Positions 1,704-64,000 of a DNA stretch of 64,000 nt are shown here, piece by piece. The position numbers and the translations under genes are program-made. Numbering within the stretch: position 1 is the first letter of the stretch; each line of letters opens with the position of its first letter. Source of the DNA: Actinomycetospora lemnae (GTDB lineage Bacteria; Actinomycetota; Actinomycetes; Mycobacteriales; Pseudonocardiaceae); contig NZ_JAQZAO010000007.1 in the NCBI RefSeq assembly GCF_028737315.1, positions 62,001-126,000 on the forward strand, written 5' to 3'. The notes beneath the pieces were generated by a model. It had not been told where the DNA came from and searched no databases. It saw nothing but the letters and a program-made list of their open reading frames with translations.

Positions 1704-2110
1704 CCACCTCGGGAGACGGAACGGAGCGGAGCTCGACCGTCGGGCCCGACGGCGGCGCGGCGGCGCGCAAGGCGTTCCGCGGGCCGGCGAGCGCCTGCCT
1801 GTCGCTCGAGGTCGTCATCGTGCCGCTCGGCCTGCTCGTCATGGACAAGGTCGAGGGCGGGCTGACGCCGGCGAAGATCGCGTGGGTGGTCGTCCTGACG
1901 CTCGGGATGATCGTCGCGATCGCGACCTTCTCGCGGCCCTGGGGCCTGCCGCTGGCCCTGGGCCTGCAGGTGCTCATGCTGCTCGGCTGGCTCGTGTCCC
2001 CGTCGCTGGGCGTGCTGGGGCTGGTGTTCTGTCTGGTGTGGGCGCTGATGCTGTGGATGCGGCACGAGGTGCTGCGTCGCCAGCGGGAGTGGGCCGAGCG
2101 GGGCGCGTGA
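1700..2110 (+). CDS. DUF4233 family membrane protein
   Basis: This is a 136-residue protein with about four hydrophobic spans (for example ACLSLEVVIVPLGLLVM and LGLQVLMLLGWLVSP) and a basic C-terminal tail (HEVLRRQREWAERGA). It matches the DUF4233 family, almost always found between folC and ndk in actinobacteria; its function is unknown. The GTG start overlaps the folC stop by four bases. The soluble N-terminus contains the peptide GDGTERSSTVG, encoded at 1715-1737 by a copy of the dispersed repeat described in the findings. The repeat therefore seems to have lengthened the variable N-terminal tail. Confidence 0.88.
   Translation: MTTSGDGTERSSTVGPDGGAAARKAFRGPASACLSLEVVIVPLGLLVMDKVEGGLTPAKIAWVVVLTLGMIVAIATFSRPWGLPLALGLQVLMLLGWLVSPSLGVLGLVFCLVWALMLWMRHEVLRRQREWAERGA
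1715..1737 (+). repeat. Dispersed short repeat, copy 1 (inside DUF4233 gene)
   Basis: The segment reads GACGGAACGGAG then CGGAGCTCGAC and shares the 9-mer AGCGGAGCT and the flanks GAC...CGACC with other copies. It is translated in frame as GTERSST, the same frame used by the copy in the acyl-CoA ligase gene. Confidence 0.55.
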
Positions 2111-2120
2111 CCCGGCTCGT

Positions 2121-2126
2121 TAGGCT
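2121..2126 (+). promoter_or_regulatory. Candidate -10 box of ndk (TAGGCT)
   Basis: TAGGCT lies just after the DUF4233 stop and about 40 bases before the ndk start. This would give a short leader that contains the ndk ribosome binding site. No convincing -35 is seen. Confidence 0.4.
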
Positions 2127-2165
2127 CGTGCCCCGTCACTGCGGTACATCTGTGAGGGGAACGAC

Positions 2166-2570
2166 GTGGACGAGCGCACCCTGGTGCTGGTCAAGCCCGA
2201 CGGCGTGGCGCGGGGCCTGGTCGGCGAGGTCATCTCGCGCATCGAGCGCAAGGGCCTGCGCCTGGTGTCGCTGGAGCTGAAGACCGTCGACCGCGGCCTC
2301 GCCGAGCAGCACTACGCCGAGCACGAGGGCAAGGGCTTCTACGAGGACCTGCTGAGCTTCATCACCTCGGCGCCGGTCGCCGCGATGGTCGTCGAGGGCC
2401 CGCGCGCCGTCGCCGCCTTCCGCCAGATCGCCGGCGGCACCGACCCCGTCGAGAAGGCCGTGCCCGGGTCCATCCGCGGCGACCTGGCCCTCGAGACGGG
2501 CTCGAACATCGTGCACGGCTCCGACTCGCCCGAGTCCGCCGAGCGCGAGATCAAGCTCTGGTTCGGCTGA
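2166..2570 (+). CDS. ndk: Nucleoside diphosphate kinase
   Basis: Ndk transfers the gamma phosphate of ATP to nucleoside diphosphates through a phosphohistidine. The 134-residue length is typical. The N-terminal strand [12 protein letters not shown] and the active-site motif NIVHGSDS are present, the catalytic histidine being about residue 117. The GTG start is preceded by a good Shine-Dalgarno sequence (GAGGGG, six bases of spacing). The folC-DUF4233-ndk order is conserved in actinobacteria. A strong hairpin follows the stop codon, so the gene probably ends a transcription unit. Confidence 0.97.
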
Positions 2571-2578
2571 TCGCCTGA

Positions 2579-2609
2579 CGCCGGGTGGGCCCTCCGGGCC
2601 CACCCGGCG
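2579..2609 (+). terminator. Hairpin terminator after ndk
   Basis: A perfect 14-bp inverted repeat, CGCCGGGTGGGCCC and GGGCCCACCCGGCG, flanks a TCC loop nine bases after the ndk stop. There is no T-tract, which is usual for actinobacterial terminators. Confidence 0.75.
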
Positions 2610-2648
2610 GCGTGGCCCCGGGTGGGCCGGACCGCCCGGGCGGCTCGT

Positions 2649-2654
2649 TACCCT
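2649..2654 (+). promoter_or_regulatory. Candidate -10 box (TACCCT) of a leaderless gene
   Basis: TACCCT starts exactly 12 bases before the GTG at 2661 and follows the ndk terminator. This is the spacing seen for leaderless actinobacterial transcripts, and it supports GTG 2661 as the start of the radical SAM gene. Confidence 0.55.
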
Positions 2655-2660
2655 GGGTGG

Positions 2661-4688
2661 GTGGTCGAGTCCGTGTTCGAGAGCCTGGAACCCCTGCTGC
2701 CCCGGGTCCGCAAGCCGGTGCAGTACGTGGGCGGCGAGCGCAACGCGGGGACCAAGCCGTGGGAGTCGGTGCCGGTCCACTGGGCGCTCTGCTACCCCGA
2801 CGCGTACGAGGTCGGGCTGCCCAACCAAGGCCTGATGATCCTCTACGAGGTCCTCAACGAGCGCCCCGACGCGCTCGCCGAGCGCACCTACGCCGTGTGG
2901 CCGGACCTCGCCGCGCTGATGCGCGAGCACGGGGTGCCGCAGTTCACCGTCGACGGCCACCGGCCGGTCGGTGCGTTCGACGTGCTCGGCGTCAGCTTCG
3001 CCACCGAGCTCGGCTACACGAACCTCCTGTCGATCCTCGACCTCGCCGGCATCCCGCTCCGCGCCGCCGACCGCACCACCGAGCACCCCTTGGTGCTCGC
3101 GGGCGGTCATGCGGCGTTCAACCCGGAGCCGGTCGCCGACTTCGTCGACCTCGTCGCCCTGGGCGACGGGGAGGAGGTCGTCGGCGACATCACCGACGTC
3201 GTCAAGGCGGCGCAGACCGAGGGCCTGGACCGGCGGGAGACCCTCGAGCGCCTGGCCGCGGTGCCCGGCGTCTACGTCCCGGGGCTCTACGAGGTCACCT
3301 ACGGCGACGACGGCACCATTGCCGCGGTCACGCCGACCAGCCCGGCGGCCCCGGATCGCGTCCACAAGCGGACGACCTCCGACCTCGACGACTGGCCCTA
3401 CCCCAAGAAGCCGCTCGTGCCGATGGCCGAGACCGTGCACGAGCGGATGAGCGTCGAGATCTTCCGCGGCTGCACGCGCGGGTGCCGCTTCTGCCAGGCC
3501 GGCATGATCACGCGCCCGGTGCGCGAGCGGTCGCCGCAGGGCGTGGGGGAGATGGTCGAGCAGGGGCTGAAGAGCTCGGGCTACCACGAGGTGGGCCTGC
3601 TCTCGCTGTCGTCGGCCGACCACTCGGGCATCGGCGAGATCGCCAAGGGCCTCGCCGACCGCTACGAGGGCACCGGCACCGGGCTGTCCCTGCCCTCCAC
3701 CCGCGTCGACGCGTTCAACGTCACCCTCGCCGAGGAGCTGACGCGCTCCGGCCGCCGCAGTGGCCTGACCTTCGCCCCCGAGGGCGGGTCGGAGCGGCTG
3801 CGCAAGGTGATCAACAAGATGGTCTCCGAGGAGGAGCTCATCGCGACCGTCTCCACCGCGTACGAGCACGGGTGGCGCCAGGTCAAGCTCTACTTCATGT
3901 GCGGTCTGCCGACCGAGACCGACGAGGACGTGCTGCAGATCGCGTCGATGGCCCACGAGGTCATCCGCGCCGGCCGCAAGGCCGCGGGCCGGGGCGACGT
4001 GCGCGCGACGGTGTCGATCGGCGCCTTCGTGCCCAAGCCGCACACGCCGTTCCAGTGGGCCGGGCAGACGGCGCCCGAGGTGGTCGACGCGCGGCTGCGC
4101 AAGCTCCGCGAGGCCATCAACAGCGACCGCTCGCTGGGCCGCAACATCGGCCTGCGCTACCACGACGGGCAGCCCAGCCTGGTCGAGGGCCTGCTCAGCC
4201 GGGGTGACCGGCGAATCGGTCGCGTCATCGAGCGCGCCTGGCGCGAGGGCCAGCAGTTCGACGGCTGGAGCGAGTACTTCTCCTTCGAGCGCTGGGTGGC
4301 GGCCGCCGCGAGCGAGCTCCCCGACCAGGGGGTCGACCTCGCGTGGTTCACCACCCGCGAGCGCGGCGAGCACGAGGTCCTGCCCTGGGACCACCTCGAC
4401 TCCGGGCTCGACCGCGGCTGGCTCTGGGACGACTGGCAGGACGCCCTGGCCGCCGAGGAGCAGGACGACTGCCGCTGGACGCCGTGCTTCGACTGCGGCG
4501 TGTGCCCGACGATGGGCACGGAGATCCAGATTGGCCCGCATCAGGTGATACAGCCGGGGCGTCCCTCGCTGCCGATCACGCCGGTCGAGCACCGCACGTC
4601 CACCCCTGTCCGCAACCCCGCCTTCGCGACCACCGCGACCACCGCGACCACCGCGACCACCGCGACCGCGGCGGGGCGTGCGGAGTGA
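2661..4688 (+). CDS. TIGR03960-family B12-binding-like radical SAM protein
   Basis: The protein is 675 residues from GTG 2661. The N-terminal B12-binding-like half contains CYPDAYEVGLPNQGLMILYE. The radical SAM half carries the cluster motif GCTRGCRFCQAG, with cysteines at about 271, 275 and 278 that bind a 4Fe-4S cluster. A C-terminal CFDCGVC element may bind another metal or cluster. TIGR03960 proteins nearly always occur with a TIGR03936 (DUF2344) partner, found here one gene downstream, and often next to rne/rng. The reaction is unknown; tRNA or rRNA modification is only a guess from context. The last ~15 residues come from a 9-bp tandem repeat. The frame is also open upstream to 2622, but a -10-like box lies in that stretch. 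Confidence 0.9.
   Translation: MVESVFESLEPLLPRVRKPVQYVGGERNAGTKPWESVPVHWALCYPDAYEVGLPNQGLMILYEVLNERPDALAERTYAVWPDLAALMREHGVPQFTVDGHRPVGAFDVLGVSFATELGYTNLLSILDLAGIPLRAADRTTEHPLVLAGGHAAFNPEPVADFVDLVALGDGEEVVGDITDVVKAAQTEGLDRRETLERLAAVPGVYVPGLYEVTYGDDGTIAAVTPTSPAAPDRVHKRTTSDLDDWPYPKKPLVPMAETVHERMSVEIFRGCTRGCRFCQAGMITRPVRERSPQGVGEMVEQGLKSSGYHEVGLLSLSSADHSGIGEIAKGLADRYEGTGTGLSLPSTRVDAFNVTLAEELTRSGRRSGLTFAPEGGSERLRKVINKMVSEEELIATVSTAYEHGWRQVKLYFMCGLPTETDEDVLQIASMAHEVIRAGRKAAGRGDVRATVSIGAFVPKPHTPFQWAGQTAPEVVDARLRKLREAINSDRSLGRNIGLRYHDGQPSLVEGLLSRGDRRIGRVIERAWREGQQFDGWSEYFSFERWVAAAASELPDQGVDLAWFTTRERGEHEVLPWDHLDSGLDRGWLWDDWQDALAAEEQDDCRWTPCFDCGVCPTMGTEIQIGPHQVIQPGRPSLPITPVEHRTSTPVRNPAFATTATTATTATTATAAGRAE
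4626..4667 (+). repeat. 9-bp tandem repeat (GCGACCACC)n in a gene 3' end
   Basis: Four complete GCGACCACC units plus a partial fifth encode a run of Ala-Thr-Thr at the C-terminus of the radical SAM protein. Gain or loss of a unit keeps the frame. Confidence 0.9.
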
Positions 4689-5277
4689 GCGGGGCCGAGC
4701 GCCCGTGAGCGCGGCCGGGTCGCGCCCCGATCAGCCCCGGTCACCGGAGCGGACGGAAGCGCCGGCAGGTACGGAACGTCCCGCGCCCGAGGTCCGGGTG
4801 CGCCGGGCGGGCCCGACCGACGGCGACGCGGTCGCGGCGCTGCGCCGTGCCTGGGTCGAGCAGCGCGGCCGCGCCGCGCCGGGCGAGGACCCGGGCTTCG
4901 AGCAGGTCTTCGCGACGTGGTGGCGCGCCGAGCTCTCGCACCACGTCGTGTGGGTGGCCGAGGCGGAGAGCGGCGACGGCTGGGACGTCGTCGGGTCCCT
5001 CGACGTCGCCGAGGTCGCCGCCATGCCCGCGCCCGGGCGGCCGGGGGAGCGGTGGGGCTACGTCGGCAGCCTCGTCGCGCTCGGGGCCGCGCCGCGCGGG
5101 GTACCCCGCAAGCTCCTCGGCGCGGCCGTCGCCCACGCCCGCGAGCGAGGGCTGGTGCGGCTGGTGCTGCGCCCCTCGCCGGCGGGCGCGGCCTTCTACC
5201 GCGCCGCCGGGTTCGCCCCGGCCGGCGACGACATCGTGGTCCTCCCCACCGGCGGGGGACCGGGAGGGACGAGCTGA
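4678..5277 (+). CDS. GNAT-family N-acetyltransferase
   Basis: The 199-residue protein has an N-terminal low-complexity stretch of about 40 residues, then a GNAT fold starting EVRVRRAGPTDGDAVAALRRAW. The acetyl-CoA region is VPRKLLGAAVAHARERG and the end is AAFYRAAGFAPAGDDIVVLP. The substrate is unknown. Motif A is weak (no clean RxxGxG/A). The start could be GTG 4678, overlapping the upstream gene by 11 bases, or GTG 4705; neither has a clear ribosome binding site. The gene lies between two genes whose products usually act together, with an overlap at its 3' end, so it is co-transcribed with them. Confidence 0.75.
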   Translation: MRSERGRAPVSAAGSRPDQPRSPERTEAPAGTERPAPEVRVRRAGPTDGDAVAALRRAWVEQRGRAAPGEDPGFEQVFATWWRAELSHHVVWVAEAESGDGWDVVGSLDVAEVAAMPAPGRPGERWGYVGSLVALGAAPRGVPRKLLGAAVAHARERGLVRLVLRPSPAGAAFYRAAGFAPAGDDIVVLPTGGGPGGTS

Positions 5278-6101
5278 TGGCGGAGACGCAGGCCGGACGG
5301 CCCTCGGCGCTCACGGCCAAGGCCGGCGACGCGCCGCACCCGTCGGCGCCGGTCGTCGGGAAGCTGCGCATGCGCTACGCCAAGCGCGGGCGGGCGCGGT
5401 TCAGCTCGCACCGCGACATCGCGCGGACGATGGAGTGGACGCTGCGCCGCGCGGGGGTGCCGGTGGCGCTGTCGCAGGGGTTCAGCCCGCACCCGCGGCT
5501 CTCGTGGATCGGCGCCGCTCCCACGGGCGCGGCGAGCGAGGCGGAGTACCTCGAGATCGGCGTCACCGAGCACCTCGACCCGGCGCTCGTGGCCCGCGAG
5601 GTCGACGCGGTGCTGCCCGACGGGCTCGCCGTCATCGAGGTCGTGCCGGCGGGACCGGGCGCGCTCGCCGACCGGATCGACGCCAGCCGCTGGGAGATCG
5701 AGACGCCCGGCGTGTCCGACGACACCCTCGCGCCGGCGATCGCGGCGTTCCTCGCCGCCCCGGAGGTGTCGGTGGAACGCGTCACGAAGAACGGCCCGAA
5801 GCCGCTGGACGTGCGAGCAGCGGTCGCCGAACTGCGTCTTTCGCTCACCCGGACGGACGAACCGGTCGACGCCGACCGGGAGGACCGTGCACGAGCGGCG
5901 ACGTGTGGGAGACTGACGGCGGTCGTACGGCACACCACGCCGGCCGCACGACCCGACGATGTGTGCAGTGCCCTCCGCGCCGTCGCCGGCCTCGAGTTCC
6001 CGGAGCCCAACAGGGCCACCCGGTGGGCGCAGGGACGGCTCGACGAGCGCGGGGAGCTGATCGACCCGCTCGCGGCGGACCGCGCGGCACCCACCGCGTA
6101 G
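5277..6101 (+). CDS. TIGR03936-family (DUF2344) radical-SAM-linked protein
   Basis: The protein is 274 residues from an ATG sharing one base with the upstream stop (TGATG). The domain begins at KLRMRYAKRGRARFSSHRDI and contains the conserved LSQGFSPHPRLSW stretch. The family is defined by its linkage or fusion to TIGR03960 radical SAM proteins and its position before the RNase E/G gene. It probably forms a functional pair with the product of 2661-4688. The biochemical role is not established. The region to the next gene (6102-6283) shows no further gene and should hold the rne leader. Confidence 0.88.
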   Translation: MAETQAGRPSALTAKAGDAPHPSAPVVGKLRMRYAKRGRARFSSHRDIARTMEWTLRRAGVPVALSQGFSPHPRLSWIGAAPTGAASEAEYLEIGVTEHLDPALVAREVDAVLPDGLAVIEVVPAGPGALADRIDASRWEIETPGVSDDTLAPAIAAFLAAPEVSVERVTKNGPKPLDVRAAVAELRLSLTRTDEPVDADREDRARAATCGRLTAVVRHTTPAARPDDVCSALRAVAGLEFPEPNRATRWAQGRLDERGELIDPLAADRAAPTA

Positions 6102-6283
6102 TCCCCAGGACGGGCCCGGTCGGCCTCGGTGCTCCCACATCGGCGACCGCACGGTCCGACGGCTCCCGAACTCGCCGGCCGTGCCGCAATCGGCGGCCGT
6201 CCCCGACGACCGCCCAGGCGAGACCACGCGAGGCCCCCGTGTGGCCGCGACCCCCGGGTCGCGCCCGGGGGCGGAGGAGATGG

Positions 6284-10355: not shown

Positions 10356-10390
10356 GCACGGAGCGCAGCGGAGCTGCGGCGCCGGAGGCC
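10356..10390 (+). repeat. Dispersed short repeat, copy 2 (intergenic, rpmA-obgE)
   Basis: The core GGAGCGCAGCGGAGCT matches the family core at 15 of 16 positions. It can fold as CGCAGC-GGA-GCTGCG. The flank GCGCCGGAGGCC is shared with the inverted copy after proA (14415-14453). Confidence 0.65.
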
Positions 10391-14414: not shown

Positions 14415-14453
14415 GGCCTCCGGCGCGGCAGCTCCGCTGCGCTCGGCTCGTGC
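14415..14453 (-). repeat. Dispersed short repeat, copy 3 (intergenic, after proA)
   Basis: Read on the minus strand, GAGCGCAGCGGAGCTGCC followed by GCGCCGGAGGCC nearly repeats copy 2. The 194-bp gap 14405-14598 otherwise holds no supportable gene. The minus strand between the repeat and the SRPBCC stop is open for about 45 codons (APPQVVELLSRLATGLFGPW) but has no start codon, so it may be a gene remnant. Confidence 0.6.
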
Positions 14454-15078: not shown

Positions 15079-15774
15079 TCAGCGGCCGAGCACGACGCCG
15101 CGGTCGCGCACGAGGTCCCAGACGTCGTAGGGCAGGTCCGCCCAGGCGAAGACGTCGTCGACGGTGGCGAACCGCCCGGCGGCGCCGCGGCACGCCACGA
15201 TGCGCTCGGCATGGGCGGGCGCGATCCCGCAGGTCCTGGCGATCACGGGTCCGGGCGCGGTGTTGAGGTCGACGAGCCCGCCGTCGTCGTAGGCGCGCGG
15301 CAGGTCGGGGCGCCCGACGCGCAGGTCCCGGGCCAGCAGCGGGTCGTCGGCGGCGAGGCGGCGGGCCTCGGTGCGGCGCGTCCGGGCGGCCAGGGCCGCC
15401 TCGACGGCCGGGTCCGGGGGCGGCCGGTCCCAGCTCGTCGGCTTCGCGCGGGGGCCGAACACCTGGGGCCGGAGGACGATCAGGGCCACGAGGCCCGCGA
15501 CGAAGCCGGTCCAGATGCCCGCGGTCGCGAGGCCTCCGGCGACCCCGACGAGACGGCCCTCGGGGTCGCGCCCGGCCGCGCCGGCGCCGACGAACGTCGC
15601 GACCAGGAGGACGAGCGCCGCGACCAGGACCGCGATGTGGCCCGGGCGCCGGGTGCGGACCGCCGCGTGGGCGAGCGGCACCGGGAGCAGCAGGCCGGCG
15701 CTGAGCACGTGCACGAGGAACCACCACCCGCCCCGGGTGAACCAGGTCCCGGGACGGGTGCCCACCGTCGTCAT
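15079..15774 (-). CDS. Membrane protein with C-terminal helix-hairpin-helix domain
   Basis: The 231-residue protein has three predicted membrane spans (about 17-38, 45-66, 77-100) and a linker of charged residues. It ends with a ComEA-like helix-hairpin-helix region, GLVDLNTAPGPVIARTCGIA followed by AHAERIVACRGAAGRFATVD (about 165-231). The DLNTA start and RGxxGxFxxVDD repeat resemble ComEA and Nup/PsbU-type HhH motifs that bind nucleic acid or protein. No function is known. The ATG shares one base with the upstream ligase stop (TGATG), so the two are translationally coupled. Confidence 0.72.
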   Translation of the reverse strand: MTTVGTRPGTWFTRGGWWFLVHVLSAGLLLPVPLAHAAVRTRRPGHIAVLVAALVLLVATFVGAGAAGRDPEGRLVGVAGGLATAGIWTGFVAGLVALIVLRPQVFGPRAKPTSWDRPPPDPAVEAALAARTRRTEARRLAADDPLLARDLRVGRPDLPRAYDDGGLVDLNTAPGPVIARTCGIAPAHAERIVACRGAAGRFATVDDVFAWADLPYDVWDLVRDRGVVLGR

Positions 15775-17318
15775 CAGGTCGACAGCTGGTCGCGCAGGAC
15801 GCGCTTGAGGAGCTTGCCCGACTGGTTGCGGGGCAGCTCGTCGACGAAGTGGACGTGCTTCGGGGTCTTGTAGCCCGCGAGGCGCGCACGGACGTGGGCG
15901 ATGAGGTCGTCCCGCAGGGTCGAGCTCCGCTCGGCGTCGTCTCCCGCGGCGGAGACCTCCGGCTTCGTCACCACGAACGCCGTCACGGCCTCGATCCACC
16001 GCTCGTCGGGGGTGCCGATCACCGCGACCTCGGCGACCGCCGCGTGGGTGTAGAGCGCGTCCTCCACCTCGCGGGACGCGACGAGCACCCCGCCGGTGTT
16101 GATCACGTCCTTGATCCGGTCGACGACGGTGATGTAGCCCTGCTCGTCGATGCGCACGAGGTCGCCGGAGTGGAACCAGCCGTCGCGGAAGGCCTCGGCG
16201 GTCTCGTCGGGCTTGTCCCAGTAGCCCTCGCAGAGCTGCGGGGAGCGGTAGACCACCTCGCCGATGCCGCCGGGCTCGACGTCGTCGCCGTCGTCGTCGA
16301 TCACCCGCAGCTCGACGAACAGCACCGGGCGCCCGCACGACTCGGGACGCTCGTCGTGCTCCTCGGGCTGCAGCACGGTGGCCAACGGGCCGATCTCGGA
16401 CTGGCCGAAGCAGTTGTAGACGCCGAGCGCGGGCAGCGCCTCGCGGAGCCTGGTCAGGATCGGCACCGGCATGATCGACGCGCCGTAGAACGCCTTGCGC
16501 AGGCTCGTCAGGTCGCGGGTCGAGAAGTCGGCGTGGTTGACCAGCGGCACCCACACCGTCGGCGCCAGGAAGATCGCCCCGATGCCGTCGGCCTCGATCC
16601 GGCGGAGGATCTCCGGGATGTCCGGCGCCTCCATGAGGAAGTTGGTGGCGCCGACCATGAGGTAGGGCATGAGGAAGAGCTGCATGCCGGCCGAGTGGTA
16701 CAGCGGCATGGCGTGCAGCGGGCGGTCGTCCTCCGACATCGCCAGCGCGTGCACGCCCGAGACGTACTCGTGCACGAGGCCGCGGTGGGTCATCATCGCG
16801 CCTTTGGGCCGCGAGGTCGTGCCCGAGGTGTAGAGCAGCTGGACGAGGTCGGTGTCGGCGACGGTCGCGAGGATCTCGGGCAGCTCGCCGCTGCTGGCCC
16901 GCTCGAGCAGCGAGCCGGGCGCGTCGCGCAGCGGCACGACCTGCTTGGGCTGGGCGGGCAGCGCATCGACGGGGCCCGCCAGCGCCGGGTCGATGAGCAG
17001 CAGTCGGCTGCCCGACTGCTCGACGAGGTAGCCGAGCTCCTCGCCGGTCAGCGCGTAGTTGATCGGCACGTGCACCGCGCCGAGCCGCGCGCAGCCCAGG
17101 AACGCGAGCAGGTAGGCGTCGGAGTTCTTGCCGTAGGTGGCGACGCGGTCGCCCGCGCCGATCCCGAGCTCACCGAGGAACCCGGCGGCCCGGGTGACGG
17201 CGTCGTCGAGCTCGCGGTAGGTCCAGGTGCGGTCGGCGAAGTGCAGGGCGACACGGTCGGGGGTGCGGCGCGCGCTGCGGGCCAGCACCCCGTCCACCGT
17301 GCTCGAGCGGGTGTCCAC
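15774..17318 (-). CDS. Acyl-CoA synthetase (AMP-dependent, FadD-like)
   Basis: This 514-residue ANL-superfamily enzyme would activate a carboxylic acid to acyl-AMP and then acyl-CoA. The P-loop LLYTSGTTSRPKG is at ~161-173, the A5 motif is YNCFGQSEIGPL, A7 is WFHSGDLVRID, A8 is VDRIKDVINTGG, and the catalytic lysine in NQSGKLLKR is ~502. The acid is unknown; neighbours give no clear pathway. A stretch near 457-466 (GDDAERSSTLR) lies where homologues have a short loop and is encoded by a dispersed repeat copy. The ATG start gives the usual N-terminus (DGVLARSARRTPDRVALHF). It heads a coupled unit with the HhH membrane protein. Confidence 0.92.
   Translation of the reverse strand: MDTRSSTVDGVLARSARRTPDRVALHFADRTWTYRELDDAVTRAAGFLGELGIGAGDRVATYGKNSDAYLLAFLGCARLGAVHVPINYALTGEELGYLVEQSGSRLLLIDPALAGPVDALPAQPKQVVPLRDAPGSLLERASSGELPEILATVADTDLVQLLYTSGTTSRPKGAMMTHRGLVHEYVSGVHALAMSEDDRPLHAMPLYHSAGMQLFLMPYLMVGATNFLMEAPDIPEILRRIEADGIGAIFLAPTVWVPLVNHADFSTRDLTSLRKAFYGASIMPVPILTRLREALPALGVYNCFGQSEIGPLATVLQPEEHDERPESCGRPVLFVELRVIDDDGDDVEPGGIGEVVYRSPQLCEGYWDKPDETAEAFRDGWFHSGDLVRIDEQGYITVVDRIKDVINTGGVLVASREVEDALYTHAAVAEVAVIGTPDERWIEAVTAFVVTKPEVSAAGDDAERSSTLRDDLIAHVRARLAGYKTPKHVHFVDELPRNQSGKLLKRVLRDQLST
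15917..15943 (-). repeat. Dispersed short repeat, copy 4 (inside acyl-CoA ligase gene)
   Basis: On the minus strand the segment reads GAGACGACGCC then GAGCGGAGCTCGACCC. Its flanks GAGACG and CTCGACC match copies 1 and 6. It encodes DDAERSST in frame, in the variable loop of the C-terminal ligase domain. Confidence 0.55.
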
Positions 17319-23606: not shown

Positions 23607-23650
23607 TGAGCGCGCCTACGGACACGCAGCGAAGCGGAGCTGGACGCTGA
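23606..23650 (+). CDS. 14-codon mini-cistron between MoxR and VWA genes
   Basis: The MoxR stop (TGA 23604-23606) shares its last base with an ATG. Fourteen codons (MSAPTDTQRSGAGR) run to a TGA at 23648-23650, whose last base is the first base of the VWA gene's ATG. Most of it is dispersed repeat copy 5 (23621-23645). It may pass ribosomes from MoxR to VWA rather than make a useful peptide. Without it, the two genes would probably overlap directly as TGATG. Confidence 0.5.
   Translation: MSAPTDTQRSGAGR
23621..23645 (+). repeat. Dispersed short repeat, copy 5 (MoxR-VWA junction)
   Basis: The exact core GCAGCGAAGCGGAGCT sits between GACAC and GGAC. It is read in the mini-cistron as DTQRSGAG, the same frame as the copies in the VWA and luciferase-like genes. 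Confidence 0.7.
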
Positions 23651-25134
23651 TGGTCGTCACCGGCGGCCTGCCGGCCCACCTCGTCGACTTCGTCGGCGCG
23701 CTGCGGCGGGCCGGGATCGCGGTGGGCCCGGGGGAGTCGGTGGACGCCGCGGCGGTGATCGCCGAGCTCGACCTCCTGCGCCGCGAGCAGGTGCGCGAGG
23801 GACTGGCGGCGGCGATGCTGCGCCGCTCGGGGCAACGGGCGGTGTTCGACGCGCTGTTCGACCTGTGGTTCCCGCTGGGGCAGGGCGCCGCGCTGGGCGA
23901 GGTCGCGCTGCCCTACGCCGACGACGGGTCGGTCGACGTCGAGGCCCTGCGCGACCTGCTCGCCGGCCTGCTGCGCGACGGAGACACCGCGGCGATGGCC
24001 GAGCTGGCGCGCGCGATCGTCGACGGGCTGGGCGCCGTCGGACGGGGCCAGGGCCAGGGCGGCCAGGGGCAGGGCCAGGGCGGGGGCGGCGGCGACCGCG
24101 GCGAGGGTGGGGGCGGGCGCCCGTCGACGTGGTCGGCCTACCAGGCCCTCAACGCCGTGCGGCCCGAGACGCTGCTGGCCCGCGTGCTCGCCGACCTGCG
24201 CCGGGGCCGGGAGACGCAGCGCAGCGGAGCTCGACCCGACGGGGCGTGGGACAGCCCGTTCGCCGAGGAGGTGTCGCGGCGCGAGGTGCGGGAGCGGATC
24301 GCGGCGTTCCGGCGGATGGTCACCGACGAGACGCGCCGGCGAGGTGCGGAGATCCGCGGGCGGGAGGCGGCGGCGCGTACCGGGGTGCCCAAGCAGGGCG
24401 ACCGCGTCGACTTCCTCACCGCGAACTCCGAGCAGCTCGCCGACCTGCGCCGCCGCGTCGCCCCGCTCGCGCGCCACCTCGCGTCACGGCTCGCCGCGCG
24501 TCGCCGGCGCGCGCGCCGCGGCCCGATCGACCTGCGCCGTACGCTGCGCCGCTCGATGTCCACCGGCGGGGTGCCGATGCGCCCGGCGTTCCGCCGCCCG
24601 CGTCCCGGGCGCCCGGAGCTGGTGCTGTTCTGCGACGTGTCCGGCTCGGTGGCGGGGTTCAGCCACTTCACGATGATGCTGGTCCAGGCCCTGCGCGAGC
24701 AGTTCTCCCGCATCCGGATCTTCTGCTTCGTCGACGGCTGCGTCGAGGTCACCGATCTCTTCGGCCCGAACGCCGACCTCGGCGGCGTCATGGCCGACAT
24801 CACCGCGCGGCCCGGGCTCATCGCGTTCGACGGCCACAGCGACTACGGCTCGGCGCTCGGGCGCTTCCGGGAGGGCTGGCCGGACGTCGTGGGCCCGCGG
24901 ACCTCGCTGCTCGTGCTCGGTGACGCCCGCACCAACTACCGCGACCCGAACCTCACCGTCCTCGGCGACCTCGCCGAGCGGGCACGGCACGCGCACTGGC
25001 TCAACCCCGAGCCGCAGGCGCAGTGGGGCACCGGCGACTCGGCGGCCCGCCGCTACGGCCAGGTCGTCCCGATGCACGAGTGCCGCACGGCCGCCCAGCT
25101 CGCGGGCGTGGTGTCGGGACTGCTGCCGGTGTGA
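23650..25134 (+). CDS. VWA domain protein (CoxE-like), partner of MoxR
   Basis: The 494-residue protein has an N-terminal CoxE-like helical region (AHLVDFVGALRRAGIAVGPG), a Gly/Gln-rich linker (about 132-157), a basic middle and a C-terminal von Willebrand A domain. The MIDAS metal site starts with DVSGSVAGFS (Asp about 329), and a threonine/aspartate arm lies in HSDYGSALGRF. CoxE-type proteins work with MoxR ATPases in maturing metal enzymes such as CO dehydrogenase; no such target gene is in the window. Residues 188-196 (ETQRSGARP) come from dispersed repeat copy 6, next to the low-complexity linker. Translation starts within the mini-cistron stop. Confidence 0.9.
   Translation: MVVTGGLPAHLVDFVGALRRAGIAVGPGESVDAAAVIAELDLLRREQVREGLAAAMLRRSGQRAVFDALFDLWFPLGQGAALGEVALPYADDGSVDVEALRDLLAGLLRDGDTAAMAELARAIVDGLGAVGRGQGQGGQGQGQGGGGGDRGEGGGGRPSTWSAYQALNAVRPETLLARVLADLRRGRETQRSGARPDGAWDSPFAEEVSRREVRERIAAFRRMVTDETRRRGAEIRGREAAARTGVPKQGDRVDFLTANSEQLADLRRRVAPLARHLASRLAARRRRARRGPIDLRRTLRRSMSTGGVPMRPAFRRPRPGRPELVLFCDVSGSVAGFSHFTMMLVQALREQFSRIRIFCFVDGCVEVTDLFGPNADLGGVMADITARPGLIAFDGHSDYGSALGRFREGWPDVVGPRTSLLVLGDARTNYRDPNLTVLGDLAERARHAHWLNPEPQAQWGTGDSAARRYGQVVPMHECRTAAQLAGVVSGLLPV
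24211..24236 (+). repeat. Dispersed short repeat, copy 6 (inside VWA gene)
   Basis: GAGAC, the exact core GCAGCGCAGCGGAGCT and CGACC. It is translated in frame as ETQRSGARP in a region between the Gly/Gln linker and the conserved SPFAEEVSRREVRERI. Confidence 0.7.
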
Positions 25135-57026: not shown

Positions 57027-57503
57027 GTGATGACACGGGGGAGCGGAGCTGACGCTCACGGACGTCGCCTCGCCCCGGAGCGGGTGCTCACCGAGGACCC
57101 GCCGGCCTTCGTCGGTGCCTGCCGGCCGCGGCGGATGCTCGTGCCCTCGGCGTTCTGCCAGGGGCCGGCGCGGCGGTCGGTCGCGGAGGCGCGCCCGCGT
57201 CTCCCCGGCGTCGCCGCGTCGCGGGCGCCGCGCGTCGACGAGGTCGCCGCGTCCGTCGAGGCGGCCTGGGCGTCGCTGCACGCCGTCGCCGCAGCCCCCG
57301 CGACCGCCGGGCCGCGCGACCAGGCGGCGCTGCGCCACGAGGCCGCGCGGCTCGCCGGCGAGGCGACGCGGCTCGAGGCGGCCGTCGTCGGCGGCGCGGG
57401 CTACGTCGCCGACAGCGCCACCGCCCGCCGCTTGCGCGAGGCCGCGTCCCTCCCCGTGCAGGCGCCTACCGAGGCCCTGCTCGAGCACCGGACCCCGGCG
57501 TGA
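57027..57503 (+). pseudogene. Probable remnant of an acyl-CoA dehydrogenase C-terminus
   Basis: The 158-codon frame ends with a stretch that looks like the last helices of an acyl-CoA dehydrogenase: HEAARLAGEATRLEAAVVGG, AGYVADSATARRLREAASLP, VQAPTEALLEHR. The N-terminal two-thirds of such a protein are missing, and the first codons (MMTRGSGADAHGRR) come from dispersed repeat copy 7. No other open frame supplies the lost part. I read it as a decayed gene cut at the repeat; a small genuine protein is possible. Confidence 0.5.
57031..57054 (+). repeat. Dispersed short repeat, copy 7 (at the 5' end of the remnant)
   Basis: TGACACGGGGGAG then CGGAGCTGACG keeps the 9-mer AGCGGAGCT and the leading GACAC. 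It is a weaker match (about 13 of 16 core positions). It is followed by the remnant and preceded by a GCGGCTCCGCCGC palindrome (57012-57024). Confidence 0.45.
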
Positions 57504-58135: not shown

Positions 58136-58165
58136 TTGACACGTCCTGCACTCGGGTGCAACTGT
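58136..58165 (+). promoter_or_regulatory. Candidate promoter of the P450 operon
   Basis: A perfect -35 TTGACA (58136-58141) is followed 18 bases later by AACTGT (58160-58165) as a weak -10. The operator at 58147-58160 lies between, so a bound repressor would block polymerase. Confidence 0.55.
58147..58160. promoter_or_regulatory. Operator O1 (TGCACTCGGGTGCA)
   Basis: The 14-base site has inverted arms TGCAC and GTGCA. It is the exact reverse complement of O2 at 58181-58194. Two such copies between a TetR gene and its neighbour are the expected repressor sites. A GTTCCGGAAC palindrome (58164-58173) sits between them. Confidence 0.8.
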
Positions 58166-58180
58166 TCCGGAACCGCCACC

Positions 58181-58194
58181 TGCACCCGAGTGCA
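58181..58194. promoter_or_regulatory. Operator O2 (TGCACCCGAGTGCA)
   Basis: The reverse complement of O1, centred 34 bases from it and 22-35 bases before the P450 start codon. It can block leader passage or pair with O1 through one repressor dimer of dimers. Confidence 0.8.
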
Positions 58195-58215
58195 ACCCTC
58201 TCACCAGGGAGAAGT

Positions 58216-59405: not shown

Positions 59406-59406
<1 letters not shown>
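58216..59406 (+). CDS. Cytochrome P450
   Basis: The 396-residue soluble P450 has the I-helix motif ASIWLAGIDSTGALLG, the ExxR motif EELLRFEAP, and the haem-binding stretch LALGTSIHLCLGAPLAR with the ligand Cys about residue 345. The usual Phe seven residues before it is Leu. It would hydroxylate or otherwise oxidise a small molecule, with electrons from a ferredoxin not found in the window. The ATG follows AGGGAGA. It overlaps the MBL gene by one base and leads a TetR-controlled unit. Confidence 0.93.
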
Positions 59407-60346
<940 letters not shown>

Positions 60347-60350
<4 letters not shown>

Positions 60351-61321
60351 AGATCGCCCGCATCGAGGTCGACGGGGCCCGCCGGGTCGGTGTCGTCGAC
60401 GGGGACCGGGTCCAGCCGCTCGCGGCCCACGTCACCGTGGAGGAGGTGCTCGCCGCGACGCCGGCCGAGCGCACCGCGCTCGTCGACCGGGCCGCCGACG
60501 GCGCGCCGCGTCCGTTGTCGGACATGCGGCTGCTCGCGCCGGTGGCGCCCCCGACCCTGCGCGACCACATCACCTTCGAGGAGCACCTCGAGGGCAGCCT
60601 CAAGCTGCTCGGCCGCACGGCACCACCCCCGGAGTGGTACGAGCAGCCCGTCTTCTACTTCTCCAACACCAATGCCGTCATCGGGCCGGACGAGCCGGTC
60701 GCGGTGCCGCCGGGGTGCGAGCGGCTCGACTTCGAGCTCGAGCTCGCCGCCGTCATCGGCCGGCCCGGACGGGACCTGACCCCCGAGCAGGCGGGCGACC
60801 ACATCGCCGGGTACACGCTGTTCAACGACTGGTCCGCCCGTGACCTCATGGCGCCGGTGATCCCCGTGGGCCTCGGTCCGGTCAAGGGCAAGGACTTCGC
60901 CAACACCCTCGGACCGTGGATCGTCACCGCCGACGAGCTGGCGCCCTTCCGTCGGGACGACCGGCTGGCGCTGGAGATGCACGCGGAGGTCAACGGCGTC
61001 CCGCTGCCGGGCGGCGGGGACACCTCGGCGAGCATGGCGTGGTCGTTCGAGGAGATCGTCGCCTACGCCTCGCGCGGGGCGGAGCTGCGGACCGGTGACG
61101 TGCTCGCGTCGGGGACCTGCGGCACGGGCTGCCTGCTCGAGTACTGGGCCCAGGCGGGCGACGCGGCGCCGCCGCCGCTGCGGCCGGGGGACGTCGTCAC
61201 GCTGGTCGTGGAGGGCATCGGGTCGGTGTCGAACCGCGTCGTCGCGGGTGCCGAGCCGGTGCCCGTGCCGAAGGCCCGGGTCGGGCACGCGCGACGGCCC
61301 CGTCCGTGGACGAGTACCTGA
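60347..61321 (+). CDS. Fumarylacetoacetate hydrolase family protein
   Basis: The 324-residue FAH-fold protein has the metal-binding glutamates in FELELAAVIG, then GYTLFNDWSARDLMAPV, VKGKDFANTLGPWIVTADEL and SGTCGTGCLLEYW. The family cleaves C-C bonds of beta-diketo acids or acts as decarboxylase/isomerase in aromatic catabolism (HpcE-like). With the P450 and MBL genes it makes a coupled three-gene cassette, perhaps for ring oxidation, hydrolysis and C-C cleavage. The order of steps is inferred. Confidence 0.9.
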
Positions 61322-61342
61322 TCGTGTCGTTCGGCGGTGTCC

Positions 61343-61360
61343 CCGCTCGGGCCCGAGCGG
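61343..61360 (+). terminator. 18-bp palindrome after the FAH gene
   Basis: CCGCTCGGG and CCCGAGCGG are adjacent inverted arms 21 bases after the FAH stop. They may terminate the P450 operon before the cupin gene. Confidence 0.5.
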
Positions 61361-61364
61361 TGAC

Positions 61365-61408
61365 CATGGTCGTCCACCACCACCACGGCACGGACGGGGA
61401 CGACCATG
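61365..61408 (+). promoter_or_regulatory. Inverted repeat enclosing the cupin start codon
   Basis: CATGGTCGTCC (61365-61375) is the exact reverse complement of GGACGACCATG (61398-61408), whose last three bases are the cupin ATG. If transcribed, the 11-bp stem would hide the start codon and the G-rich stretch before it. A CAC repeat (histidine-codon-like) sits in the loop. Confidence 0.5.
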
Positions 61409-61744
61409 CTCAAGCTCTCCCTCGACGCCTGCGCCCGCCAGCAGCTCACGGCGGCGCGCAGCAGCTCGGCCGGGCGCGCCGCCCACACGGTGGTGGGCGG
61501 GCACGGCAACGTCATGCGCCAGACGGTCATCGCGCTGACGGGCGGTCGCGAGCTCGGCGAGCACGAGAACCCCGGCGAGGCGACGCTGGTCGTGCTGCAC
61601 GGCCGGGTGCGGCTCGTGTCGGAGAAGGACTCGTGGGACGGGCGCCGGGGCGACCTGCTCGTCGTGTCCGACGGCCGCCACCGGCTCGAGGCCGTCGAGG
61701 ACGCAGTGGTCCTGCTGACGGTGGCCAAGCTCGCTCAGAAGTAG
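61406..61744 (+). CDS. Cupin-fold protein
   Basis: The 112-residue small protein has the cupin pattern RQTVIALTGGRELGEHENPG, EATLVVLHGRVRLVSEKDSW and GDLLVVSDGRHRLEAVEDAV. In place of three metal histidines only H-E-N and a final H remain, so metal binding is uncertain. It resembles small cupins of unknown role. The stop overlaps the convergent acyl-CoA dehydrogenase gene by ten bases. Confidence 0.8.
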   Translation: MLKLSLDACARQQLTAARSSSAGRAAHTVVGGHGNVMRQTVIALTGGRELGEHENPGEATLVVLHGRVRLVSEKDSWDGRRGDLLVVSDGRHRLEAVEDAVVLLTVAKLAQK

Positions 61745-62931
61745 CCGTTCGTCGGGAGCGGGGCCCCGGTGACGAGGTGCCGGCCGATGGCGGCCGCCTT
61801 GTAGCTCGCCGGGTTGTGCAGCGTGATCGTGCGGATGTTGCGCCAGTGCCGGTCGAGGTTGCGGGCGCGGCTGGACGCCGAGGCCCCGCCGACGTCGAAC
61901 AGGGTCGTCGCCGCGTCCAGGGCGACGCGGTCGAGGTGCACCTTCACCGACGTGTGCGCGAGCGACGCCGCGAGCAGCAGCTCCTCGGTCGGCTCGCCCT
62001 CCGCCCACGCCGCCATCACCGCGTCGATCGCGTCGGCCGCGGTGAGCACCGCCGCCTGCGCGGTCCACGCCGTCGCCGACAGCCGGCCGACGACCTCGTG
62101 CAGGATCGGGTCGTCGACGGCCTGCGGCGTGGGCGCGTGCTCGAAGGTGCGGCTGCGCGCGCGGACCACGCCGGCCGCGTCCGTGGCCACCGAGCGCAGG
62201 ATCCCGGCGACCAGCGCGTGCAGGTAGAGCTGCAGGAACGCGACGTCGCCCGGTGGGCGCGGCTCGAGGCGCGGCCGCGACCCCAGCACGTCGCGGGGCT
62301 CGACGGCCACGTCGGTGAACGTCGTCGTGCCGGTGCCCGTCCGGCTCTGGCCCATGCCGTCCCAGTCGTCGACGACGTCCACGCCGGCGCGGTCGGCGGG
62401 CACCATCACCGTGGCGACCCGGTCCTCGGGCACCCGGGCCGCGACCGCGATCCAGTCCGCGTAGAGCGTCCCGGTGCTGTAGTACTTCGTGCCGTTGAGG
62501 ACCAGGCGGCCGTCGACCTCCTCGAGCCGGGTGTCGAACTCGTGCCCGCCCGCCGCGGCCGGGCCGGTCTCGCTGATCGCGTTGCCGAACACCTTCCCGG
62601 CGCGGATCTCGTCGAGCCACCGCCGGCGGACGTCCCGGTCGGGGTGGCGCAGGAAGCCGATGACCTGGCTGTAGTGGGTGCGCAGCACGTGGGCGACGAT
62701 CGGGTCGGCCTCGGCGAGGTCGACGACGAACGCCAGCACCTCCCGCACCGACGCGCCGCGCCCGCCCTCGTCCACCGGCAGCGACAGCGCGCCCAGCCCG
62801 GCGCGCGCCACCACGGCCACCTCCCCGAACGGCGAGGCGTCGGTCCGCTCCCGCTCCGCGGCGCCCGCGGCGATCCCGGCGAGCAGCGCGGCGACCTCGG
62901 GCTCGGCGGCGGTCCGCGACGCGGGGCTCAC
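61735..62931 (-). CDS. Acyl-CoA dehydrogenase-like flavin monooxygenase (DszC/SfnB-like)
   Basis: The 398-residue acyl-CoA dehydrogenase-fold protein has GLGALSLPVDEGGRGASVRE, HYSQVIGFLRHPDRDVRRRW, GNAISETGPAAAGG and NGTKYYSTGTLYADWIAV. The end ARNLDRHWRNIRTITLHNPA lacks the catalytic glutamate typical of true dehydrogenases. This places it with DszC/SfnB/NtaA-partner monooxygenases, which need reduced FMN. The GTG start overlaps the upstream luciferase-like gene (GTGA), which supports a shared pathway. The substrate is unknown, organosulfur being most likely. Confidence 0.88.
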   Translation of the reverse strand: MSPASRTAAEPEVAALLAGIAAGAAERERTDASPFGEVAVVARAGLGALSLPVDEGGRGASVREVLAFVVDLAEADPIVAHVLRTHYSQVIGFLRHPDRDVRRRWLDEIRAGKVFGNAISETGPAAAGGHEFDTRLEEVDGRLVLNGTKYYSTGTLYADWIAVAARVPEDRVATVMVPADRAGVDVVDDWDGMGQSRTGTGTTTFTDVAVEPRDVLGSRPRLEPRPPGDVAFLQLYLHALVAGILRSVATDAAGVVRARSRTFEHAPTPQAVDDPILHEVVGRLSATAWTAQAAVLTAADAIDAVMAAWAEGEPTEELLLAASLAHTSVKVHLDRVALDAATTLFDVGGASASSRARNLDRHWRNIRTITLHNPASYKAAAIGRHLVTGAPLPTNGYF

Positions 62932-64000
62932 GGGACGCGGGACGCGCGCAGCGCCCCGGCCGGGTGGCTCGCGTCCGCCCGCGGTCCCGTGCCGCCCAGC
63001 ACCTCGCGCAGCGTCCCGCTCGGCGGGGTCTCCGGCATCCGCCCCCGACGGCGCAGCTCCGGGACGACGAGCGTCGCGACCTGCTCGAACGTGCCGGGCG
63101 TGACCGCGTAGGCGAGGTTGAACCCGTCGGCGCCGGTCTCGTCGATCCAGCGCTCCATCTCGTCGGCGACGTCGGTCGGCGAGCCCACCGCCACCGGCCC
63201 GCGACCACCGACCGCGAGGTGCGCGGCGATCTCGTCGATCGTCCACTCCCGGTCCGGGTCGTCGGTGGTGAACGACGCGAGGGCGGTCTGCCCGGCCTCG
63301 GTGTGCACGTGGCGCAGCGGCTCGTCGGGCGGCACATCGGCGAGGTCGAGCCCGGTCCACCCGCCGAACAGCGCCATCGCGCCCTCGCGCGACGCCGCCG
63401 CGAGGTAGGACTGGTAGAGCTCCTGCGCCGCCGACGACGTCTCCGCCACCACCGGCGCGAGCTGCACGAAGATCGTCACCGACTCGGGGTCACGGCCCGC
63501 CTCGGCGACCGCCGCGCGGATGCCCGCCACCGACTTCGCGACGACACCGGTCGTCGGCCCCGACACGAACACCGCCTCGGCGTGCTTGCCGGCGAACGCC
63601 TTGCCGCGCGACGAGGCGCCCGCCTGGAAGATCGTCGGCGTGCGCTGCGGCGAGGGCTCGCAGAGGAACGGACCCGGCACGTCGAACCACGTGCCGTGGT
63701 GGGCGACGTCGTGGACCTTCGCCGGGTCGGTGTAGACGCCGCGCTCGACGTCGCGGACCACGGCGTCCTCGTCCCAGGAGGTCTCCCAGAGCTTGTAGCA
63801 GACCTCGAGGTACTCCTCGGCCATCGCGTAGCGCTCGTCGTGGGGGAGCTGCCGATTCGATGGTCCGGCTCCGCTGCGCTGCGCGTCCCCCAGCCCCAGG
63901 TTCGCCGCCGCGCTGGACAGGTAGCCGGTGACGACGTTCCAGGCGACCCGGCCCTTCGTCAGGTGGTCGAGCGTCGTGAACCGGCGGGCCAGCGCGTACG
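62928..64000 (-). CDS. NtaA/SnaA/DszA-family FMN-dependent monooxygenase (5' end outside window)
   Basis: The partial protein (about 357 residues seen) starts at the right edge with YALARRFTTLDHLTKGRVAW then NVVTGYLSSAAANLGLGD, and continues LPHDERYAMAEEYLEVCYKL and TIFQAGASSRGKAFAGKHAE, typical of DszA/NtaA proteins. Between GLGD and QLPHDERY, where homologues are contiguous or nearly so, the peptide AQRSGAGPSNR is encoded by dispersed repeat copy 8. An ATG at 63824 would give a shorter product but would lose the conserved N-terminal core. It is coupled to the DszC-like gene. Confidence 0.88.
   Translation of the reverse strand, partial: YALARRFTTLDHLTKGRVAWNVVTGYLSSAAANLGLGDAQRSGAGPSNRQLPHDERYAMAEEYLEVCYKLWETSWDEDAVVRDVERGVYTDPAKVHDVAHHGTWFDVPGPFLCEPSPQRTPTIFQAGASSRGKAFAGKHAEAVFVSGPTTGVVAKSVAGIRAAVAEAGRDPESVTIFVQLAPVVAETSSAAQELYQSYLAAASREGAMALFGGWTGLDLADVPPDEPLRHVHTEAGQTALASFTTDDPDREWTIDEIAAHLAVGGRGPVAVGSPTDVADEMERWIDETGADGFNLAYAVTPGTFEQVATLVVPELRRRGRMPETPPSGTLREVLGGTGPRADASHPAGALRASRVP
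63861..63887 (-). repeat. Dispersed short repeat, copy 8 (inside luciferase-like monooxygenase gene)
   Basis: On the minus strand GACGC is followed by GCAGCGCAGCGGAGCC (15 of 16 core positions) and GGACC. It is translated as DAQRSGAGP in frame, extending a surface loop of the monooxygenase. Confidence 0.65.

Follow-up and report, generated by a model that had tools for sequence, protein, structure and literature searches.

The genome of Actinomycetospora lemnae carries a family of 36-base repeats that is confirmed as real and far above chance, and that is likely to represent very small, non-autonomous mobile insertions with a unit of about 36 bp. At the tested sites the A. lemnae lineage carries whole units where its near relatives carry nothing. 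The unit consists of a 28-bp conserved stretch, GGGA(G/C)ACGCAGCGNAGCGGAGCT(C/G)GACC, and some 8 bases of weak conservation; net inserts most often measure exactly 36 bp, and tandem arrays of the repeat step by the same 36 bp, with linkers specific to each array. In the window, i.e. the whole 64,000-nucleotide stretch of DNA analyzed here, a sequence-only reading had recognized eight copies, and all eight places exist. Scoring against the 28-bp consensus GGGANACGCAGCGNAGCGGAGCTNGACC (25 scored positions) showed that five of these match well, namely those placed at 24211 (25/25), at 1715, 23621 and 63861 (23 each) and at 15917 (22), and that those at 10356 (18) and 14415 (15) resemble an end variant of the repeat, the GCGGCA..TGCCGC type; the eighth, at 57031..57054 on the forward strand (16/25), is unconvincing and unsupported as a member of the family. 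The 9-mer AGCGGAGCT, which the same reading held to be shared above chance, indeed occurs seven times in the window against 0.89 expected from shuffles. Matches in the window to a 16-mer with up to 3 mismatches number 18 against 8.8 expected, so that many of the three-mismatch matches are background. The genome-wide count, suggested earlier as a check, is not at the random level, with 51 exact 16-base cores in the A. lemnae genome against none for the reversed control. Similarly, 264 kb contained 14 copies scoring at least 20/25 against none for the reversed pattern, and 664 kb of arbitrarily chosen A. lemnae stretches contained 27 sites scoring at least 21/25; the genome is estimated to hold about 250-320 copies in total. 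These reversed controls rule out a chance origin. The sequence-only reading did not notice that the unit has a constant length of 36 bp, that it forms tandem arrays with the same period, that it favors the sense strand or that it occurs in Williamsia.

Four copies in the window are read in frame within protein-coding genes and supply two types of peptide, ERSST and QRSGA, as had been described earlier. The 28-bp core at 1711..1738 (forward strand, 23/25) begins at about codon 4 of a gene of the DUF4233 family (1700..2110, forward; PF14017, E 2e-24) and encodes the peptide GDGTERSST, the locus being a net 27 bp longer than in the nearest relative, G015. A 36-bp insert at 15912..15947 on the reverse strand (core 15918-15945) supplies the peptide DDAERSST within the C-terminal domain of an AMP-dependent ligase (AMP-binding enzyme, 15774..17318, reverse; PF00501, E 2e-87), in which the match to PF13193 spans 86 residues against 76 positions of the profile. 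This insert is missing from all 14 other aligned Actinomycetospora sequences, with a net difference of 36 bp relative to G015. More distant Actinomycetospora sequences carry a different short stretch near this site. The gene for a CoxE-like VWA protein (23650..25134, forward; PF05762, E 1e-51, residues 266-487) is associated with two copies. The first, at 23619..23646 (forward, 35 bp net), lies in the leader directly before the start codon and carries a ribosome-site-like GGAG, and G007 carries the longer, composite form at approximately this junction. The second, at 24209..24236 (forward), is a perfect consensus copy (25/25) read in frame as ETQRSGARP ahead of the VWA domain; G007 has a 45-bp insert at the same place, 11 other sequences are empty, and the net difference from G015 is 27 bp by pairwise site comparison or 36 bp by multiple alignment. 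The copy at 63862..63889 (reverse) is of the C-G end type and is read in frame as GDAQRSGAGP; some 36 codons separate it from the end of the in-window piece of a luciferase-like monooxygenase gene (62928..63998, reverse; PF00296, E 3e-32), which may be cut because it extends to the window end. As for the end variants, the copy at 10356..10390 (forward) is situated directly past a stop codon and is shared with G016, G007, G011 and G012 while missing from the other 10 aligned sequences, including G015; the probable copy at 14415..14453 (reverse, 15/25) is intergenic and was seen in no aligned relative, the alignment of that gap being poor.

Comparison with G015, a sister species whose flanks have a median identity of 0.94, provides the principal evidence for insertion. 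Of 47 A. lemnae sites, most of which were picked for their closeness to an exact core, 45 were alignable to G015 and 42 of these are without the element there. One G015 sequence has a good copy (L032, 23/25), and by eye two more sites have a partial (the L016 array) or degenerate (L039) copy. Together with the 14 of 14 empty orthologous sites at 15917, these observations bear out the earlier proposal of clean in-frame insertion, and the insertions into enzyme genes are recent. An ordinary minisatellite, generated by local duplication and slippage only and with no dispersal, would fit the tandem arrays with their 36-bp period and array-specific linkers, as well as the differences in array copy number, e.g. 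five copies in A. lemnae versus one in G015 at L032, or 3, 2 and 1 copies in three Williamsia species at what looks like one locus. However, local slippage cannot account for solitary copies scattered over dozens of unrelated sites whose orthologues are empty; this origin is highly improbable, and as the sole cause it is refuted by the empty sites. Convergent selection, whereby the motif arises by mutation as a useful binding site or peptide, would be in keeping with its strong conservation, the GGAG near starts and the stop-free frames, but the orthologues are without the whole unit, instead of having mutated versions of it, and the hosts are unrelated and the frames differ, making this explanation scarcely credible.

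The net inserts are divisible by 3 at 35 of the 37 sites in genes versus 2 of the 8 outside them (Fisher p 9e-5), a count that includes three sites at which G015 is not empty; when those three are left out, the values are 34/36 and 2/6. Exactly 36 bp are inserted at 24 of the 37 in-gene sites, and the in-gene inserts are frame-keeping and stop-free on the coding strand. Nineteen of the 27 sites in the arbitrarily chosen 664 kb lie in called genes, the called coding share being 0.91, where the calls are those of our own codon-model caller and not an annotation (framing by GC3 only proved unreliable). The hosts are of unrelated function, as the sequence-only reading had maintained, and retain their Pfam domains; they include a class-I tRNA synthetase, UvrC, NirB and an Fpg-like enzyme, with nitrite/nitrate reductase and biotin carboxylase genes recurring by eye among the listed clusters of neighboring frames.

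The copies also display a sense-strand bias, with 58 of 66 in-gene copies (p 2e-10) and all 13 copies between co-directional genes on the sense strand. In Williamsia the corresponding values are 10/10 in genes and 4/5 between co-directional genes, the latter representing fewer independent places, since the same place recurs in different species (L207 = L255, L292 = L296). One reading of this bias is mobility at the RNA level or coupled to transcription, with insertion via RNA or single-stranded DNA of transcribed regions. It explains the bias directly (58/66, 13/13 and the 10/10 in Williamsia genes) and is also favored by the covariation of the ends (see below) and by the eight antisense in-gene copies, which use all three frames (3, 3, 2), so that no single benign antisense frame accounts for the deficit. 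However, selection can also produce the bias, given that 11 of the 13 copies between co-directional genes are at most 27 nt from the next start or overlap it, where a sense copy supplies GGAG; the A. lemnae genome is without the PF00078 reverse transcriptase, and the gene calls come from our own caller. Accordingly, we regard such mobility as a real possibility that falls somewhat short of being probable.

The ends of the unit co-vary as if paired, with the top mutual information among the tested column pairs at -3/+16; as putative terminal inverted repeats they are only imperfect and short. In A. lemnae copies with at most 1 core mismatch the end pairs are 41 GC, 26 CG and 2 mixed; the covariation counts ignore the kinship of copies, whose subfamilies alone could yield part of the signal, and count two Williamsia loci (L280, L281) as Actinomycetospora. 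RNA and DNA folds of the tried forms were no more stable than shuffles (one longer-form sequence reached z -1.7), which rejects a stable hairpin. The previously proposed hairpin-based spread is likewise unsupported, the CGCAGC-GGA-GCTGCG fold on which it drew being that of the rarer end variant. There was no fixed target duplication, and 5 of 24 junctions were entirely without ambiguity. Junction microhomology is raised (mean 1.79 versus 1.09, reached by 2 of 100 control sets), an excess so slight that no transposition signature is visible.

A model of the RAYT-type Y1 transposase recovered nothing in 18 Actinomycetospora genomes, of which 15 are at least 90% complete, and was positive in 5 of 14 control genomes. 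Hence, a REP/RAYT origin was rejected, and a hairpin-driven spread of this type is unlikely because the Y1 model finds nothing in the 18 genomes. The reverse transcriptase domain RVT_1 (PF00078) is found in 4 of the 18 genomes (G003, G004, G007 and G017) but was discarded as the mover, being missing from the A. lemnae genome and most element-rich genomes, and uncorrelated with the element. By eye, no transposase-like neighbor recurs beside the copies among the clusters listed, and a donor gene beside the copies was likewise discounted, as the listed neighbor-frame clusters are mostly one locus seen repeatedly. An autonomous parent with separated left and right halves was dismissed as well, since the orphan halves in 775 kb of A. 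lemnae sequence are by eye mostly degenerate copies, the exceptions being a handful of sites that look like chance matches, a single truncated and a single shortened copy, and the longer composite form. No parent insertion sequence of the 36-bp unit was found.

A second conserved motif is nested in the repeat and also occurs elsewhere. The longer form has the 17-mer core GGGGAGCACGCCGAYAGGG flanked by the same ends, with the same end exchanges by eye, and this core is present in all 18 genomes of the genus (2-39 copies each; control 0); Rfam covariance models gave no credible match at the motifs of 22 loci with the longer form or its core. The 36-bp repeat could have arisen by deletion from a longer, structured element containing this core, and be moved by the same machinery. 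The shared ends and end exchanges around GGGGAGCACGCCGAYAGGG and the occurrence of the core throughout the genus point in this direction. Against it, core counts do not track the short form (17 versus 2 exact short cores in G001), the Williamsia loci examined showed no such core, and nesting of one element within the other is equally likely. We consider this derivation doubtful.

The same 24-mer is found in Actinomycetospora and the distant Williamsia, which are the hosts among the matches listed. The samples of the order and family covered only part of the genera, and the hosts named are those among the matches listed; therefore, other hosts may exist. Copy counts per genome rest on the best 150 scored candidates in each; they reach about this cap in G000, G002 and G007, so that these three hold at least about 150, whereas G015 has 2. 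Exact patterns found no copies in the viral contigs of IMG/VR, and blastn of one 36-nt consensus against phages and plasmids gave no match, a weak result given the short query and low-complexity filter. The literature search yielded nothing on the repeat among the matches listed.

Several known systems offer parallels. Rickettsia palindromic elements are built on a long palindrome of about 100-150 bp with a stable hairpin. A passage of PMC10969869 describes them as small, dispersed elements of about 150 bp, many in frame in unrelated genes. The 36-bp repeat resembles them in being dispersed and inserted in frame in unrelated genes whose orthologues are empty, and its clean in-frame insertions into hosts that keep their Pfam domains imply that it works like them. 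However, it differs from them in its 36-bp size, lack of a stable palindrome, tandem arrays, sense bias, different ends and host phylum. The likeness drawn in the sequence-only reading was thus right in kind, but not as to size, sense bias, ends or a stable palindrome. In cyanobacteria, Elhai et al. reportedly described in 2008 small dispersed repeats that can be nested and inserted into genes, and we know of no in-frame coding predominance or sense bias among them. They are about 20 bp, dispersed and tandem, and possibly mobile, according to passages of PMC2884548 and PMC3116915. As defined in such citing passages, they share with the present repeat a very small size, dispersed and tandem arrangement and apparent mobility, but reside in a different phylum. 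REPs, as portrayed in parts of PMC3116915 and PMC3733652, are mainly extragenic and RAYT-associated, with some inside genes. REP/REPIN sequences are likewise tiny repeats with hundreds of copies and imperfect inverted ends, whereas here 19 of 27 sites are in genes and no Y1 transposase was found. The palindromic amphipathic repeat coding elements (PARCEL), in the portions of PMC2996958 that describe them, are coding and tandem, with a patchy distribution read as horizontal, features that are paralleled here. Those portions present them as arrays of 25-residue repeats in ORFs lacking an assigned function, unlike the mostly single inserts of about 12 residues seen here, whose examined hosts are recognizable enzymes and regulators. 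Finally, like MITEs, the repeat is non-autonomous with co-varying ends that may correspond to short terminal inverted repeats, but its 36-bp unit is much shorter, and there is neither a fixed target duplication nor a parent insertion sequence.

Mechanistically, a putative trans-acting enzyme would recognize the paired ends and carry out insertion with no fixed duplication of the target. Its substrate may be RNA or single strands exposed by transcription, which would give the sense bias, selection being the alternative source. Survival within genes would depend on selection for lengths that are multiples of 3 and for peptides that are hydrophilic and loop-like (e.g. GDAAQRSST and DTQRSGAGP). 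Tentatively, and as a rather unlikely reading, the repeat might define a new class of mobile element of minimal size, consisting of a 36-nt paired-end unit that spreads via RNA or exposed single strands through a putative undescribed enzyme, is selected as a stop-free, frame-keeping, hydrophilic sense peptide, and shares its ends with a longer form around a second motif. Under this new-class reading, such selection would allow the unit to colonize protein genes instead of avoiding them.

Extrapolation from the 19 gene-borne sites in 664 kb suggests that the A. lemnae genome represents a large natural insertion experiment, with ordinary proteins bearing about 170 inserts, each about 12 residues long. 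The family also offers a tractable actinobacterial system for studying the movement of very small mobile repeats that have no known transposase, and for asking whether it is mechanism or selection that orients the copies with transcription.

The dispersed repeat that a sequence-only reading had picked out by eye is real: AGCGGAGCT occurs seven times in the window against 0.89 expected, and the core GCAGCGNAGCGGAGCT occurs 51 times in the 6.06 Mb A. lemnae genome, of which the window is C28:62001-126000, with no occurrence of the pattern read backwards. Alignment of all 51 exact-core copies, several of which form tandem arrays with a 36-bp period, defines a conserved block from GGGA(G/C)AC to (C/G)GACC, followed on its 3' side by about 8 weakly conserved bases and little conservation further out. 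Scored over 25 consensus positions, 14 copies reach at least 20 in 264 kb of A. lemnae DNA (the window and eleven arbitrarily chosen stretches of 15-20 kb) against 0 in the reversed control, which scales to 322 per genome; at least 21 is reached by 27 sites in 664 kb, or about 247 when scaled to the genome. Five of the eight window copies originally listed score 22-25, those at 10356 and 14415 resemble an end variant, and the one at 57031, scoring 16, is unsupported. This variant, GCGGCA..TGCCGC, has complementary end bases and in some copies a longer 3' part, GCGCCGRAGGCC; it is seen at window 10356-10390 and in the fetched loci at L012:1566, L015:1599, L018:1589, L013:1623 and L037:1540.

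The nearest relative, G015, is 85-95% identical to the window region, depending on the piece, yet has almost no copies of the element. The upstream flanks of 47 A. lemnae sites, mostly from loci around exact cores and thus the best-conserved copies, were located in G015 and the regions fetched; 45 were aligned (of the other two, one had a missing flank and one lay at a locus edge), with a median identity of 0.94 over aligned columns. G015 lacks any copy at 42 of these 45 sites; it has a good one (23/25) at L032, and two further sites have, by eye, an incomplete copy (the L016 array) or a degenerate one (L039). With genes called by our own codon-based caller, the net difference is exactly 36 bp at 24 of the 37 sites within genes. 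Differences that are multiples of 3 account for 35/37 sites within genes versus 2/8 outside them (Fisher p 9e-5), where four of the eight differ by 35 bp; dropping the three sites at which G015 is not empty leaves 34/36 versus 2/6. Because multiples of 3 prevail inside genes and are rare outside, the sequence comparison indicates that the inserts in genes are under frame-keeping selection, and they are therefore most likely translated.

At window 15917, all 14 other aligned sequences are without the insert, which demonstrates insertion rather than loss; the more distant of them show a different short stretch nearby. At window 24211 another Actinomycetospora genome, G007, also has an insert, of 45 bp, and 11 other sequences are empty. 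A. lemnae (window 24209-24236) and G007 (G007:C10:24941-24975) are occupied at the same site and G015, the closer relative, is not, which might reflect either recombination between lineages or repeated targeting. The site at window 10356 is common to four relatives and missing in ten. At four single 36-bp sites the one best placement puts the start of the inserted block 0, 1, 2 or 3 bases ahead of the core. Junction ambiguity is only slightly raised, at 1.79 against 1.09 in controls, a level attained in 2 of 100 control sets, so that a fixed target duplication is absent.

Copies within genes lie predominantly on the sense strand (58/66, comprising 43/51 in A. lemnae and 15/15 in the congeneric genomes G005 and G002), as do all 13 copies between co-directional genes; in Williamsia the corresponding counts are 10/10 and 4/5, the latter not all independent. 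The eight antisense copies are spread over all three frames. The frame differs with the type of ends, phases 2/1/0 being represented 31/7/5 times for G-C ends versus 0/10/4 for C-G ends, with one further copy having other ends; the resulting peptide is GDAAQRSST for G-C ends and DTQRSGAGP for C-G ends. At its variable position the core has C at 48, G at 33 and A at 7 of 88 sites and never T; a T would produce TAG in the most frequent frame. The survival of copies is clearly subject to selection. Selection may also underlie the sense bias, since 11 of the 13 located between co-directional genes overlap the next start or stand within 27 nt of it, where a copy in sense orientation can offer its GGAG as a ribosome site.

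Pfam analysis of 20 host proteins shows ordinary genes whose domains are kept despite the inserts. In the window, the insert of an AMP-dependent ligase lies within its C-terminal domain, where 86 residues match 76 profile positions; the other hosts there are a CoxE-like VWA protein, a luciferase-like monooxygenase and a DUF4233 protein. Elsewhere, a NirB-like gene (L029:1-2122) has inserts at three distinct places, all of them 36 bp net relative to the G015 ortholog, a Fpg-like glycosylase and an AidB-like protein have two each, a class-I tRNA synthetase contains a three-copy array, and further hosts include UvrC, a proline/aldehyde dehydrogenase and a P-type ATPase. Thirteen of the 66 sites have the insert within the first ten codons. 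By eye, nitrate/nitrite assimilation genes contain or adjoin elements both in Williamsia muralis (L193:2307-2406) and in A. lemnae (L029), which might be a hot spot or a coincidence.

Covariation was computed for all column pairs over 267 copies, one per array and counted irrespective of kinship, and the highest mutual information is that of columns -3/+16. Among A. lemnae copies with at most one core mismatch this pair is GC in 41, CG in 26 and mixed in 2; in other genus loci (two Williamsia loci included) the counts are 122, 7 and 2, and in Williamsia it is GC in 31/31. The neighboring pair in A. lemnae is A-T in 57, G-C in 5 and mixed in 7. An inner candidate pair, 1/13, is uncompensated, position 1 being G for C in 16/69 with position 13 unchanged. 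The earlier suggestion of a hairpin is not supported, predicted folds being no better than those of shuffled sequences. Since the ends co-vary and the folds equal shuffles, the ends probably pair or act as a recognized inverted repeat, rather than forming a strong palindrome.

Mobility of the 36-bp element is well supported. Given mobility, we consider it probable that a putative trans-acting enzyme recognizes the co-varying ends and inserts the 36-nt unit without a fixed duplication; that RNA or transcription-exposed single strands are the substrate of insertion is a tentative proposal. A Y1 transposase model had no match in the 18 genus genomes, and PF00078 reverse transcriptases are absent from 14 of the 18, A. 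lemnae among them. Array-specific linkers and an unpolarized five-to-one copy difference at L032 suggest that arrays formed by local duplication of the unit. The likeness to Rickettsia palindromic elements drawn previously holds in that the element works like them, as they are described in PMC10969869, but the long palindrome that defines them is missing here. In the way it works it also resembles the cyanobacterial small dispersed repeats as described in PMC2884548 and PMC3116915, and it lacks the features that define REP/REPIN, a RAYT and a mainly extragenic placement. No counterpart described in Actinomycetospora or Williamsia appeared among the matches listed from open-license PMC papers.

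A search for orphan halves recovered a longer form in which RTCAGGGGAGCACGCCGAYAGGG is enclosed by the ends of the 36-bp element, with end exchanges that by eye match those of the latter. Exact copies of the interior's 17-mer core, 2-39 per genome, exist in 18/18 genus genomes (control 0). The second motif also occurs solo, by eye for example in frame in an apparent histidine-kinase gene (L347) and between varied inverted repeats; its locations include L026:1942, L166:13749, L167:1514, L083:15535, L187:3330, L231:4413 and, near position 1501, L319-L348. Rfam gave no credible match for it. It may be either a separate small mobile element that nests in the 36-bp one or the parent element's core. 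A further repeated stretch resembling CCACTGGATTTGCCAGCAGA was seen by eye upstream of the second motif in four species (L328, L336, L338, L341); it could represent either a third element or a single orthologous site.

Exact cores of the 36-bp element are present in 17 of 18 Actinomycetospora genomes, ranging from 0 to 67 each. A sequence-only profile at E 0.01, with 150 candidates scored in each genome, counts 151 in A. lemnae, 147 in G007 and 144 in G002, and 18, 13, 11 and 2 in the poor genomes G004, G003, G001 and G015. Outside the genus, 10/279 genomes of the same family have one or two matches, with reversed control matches in 14/279; among 397 genomes sampled from the order, the 10 with a match are A. 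lemnae, G005 and eight others with one each. A 24-mer scan recovered at least 105 loci, 96 in Actinomycetospora and 9 in Williamsia among the matches listed. Four Williamsia genomes carry 23-49 matches each, at loci of 64-67% G+C, and among the matches are 36-bp arrays as well as an apparently shared locus that has 3 copies in one species, 2 in another and 1 in a third. The identical bases and patchy occurrence in two distant genera suggest that the element has been horizontally transferred.
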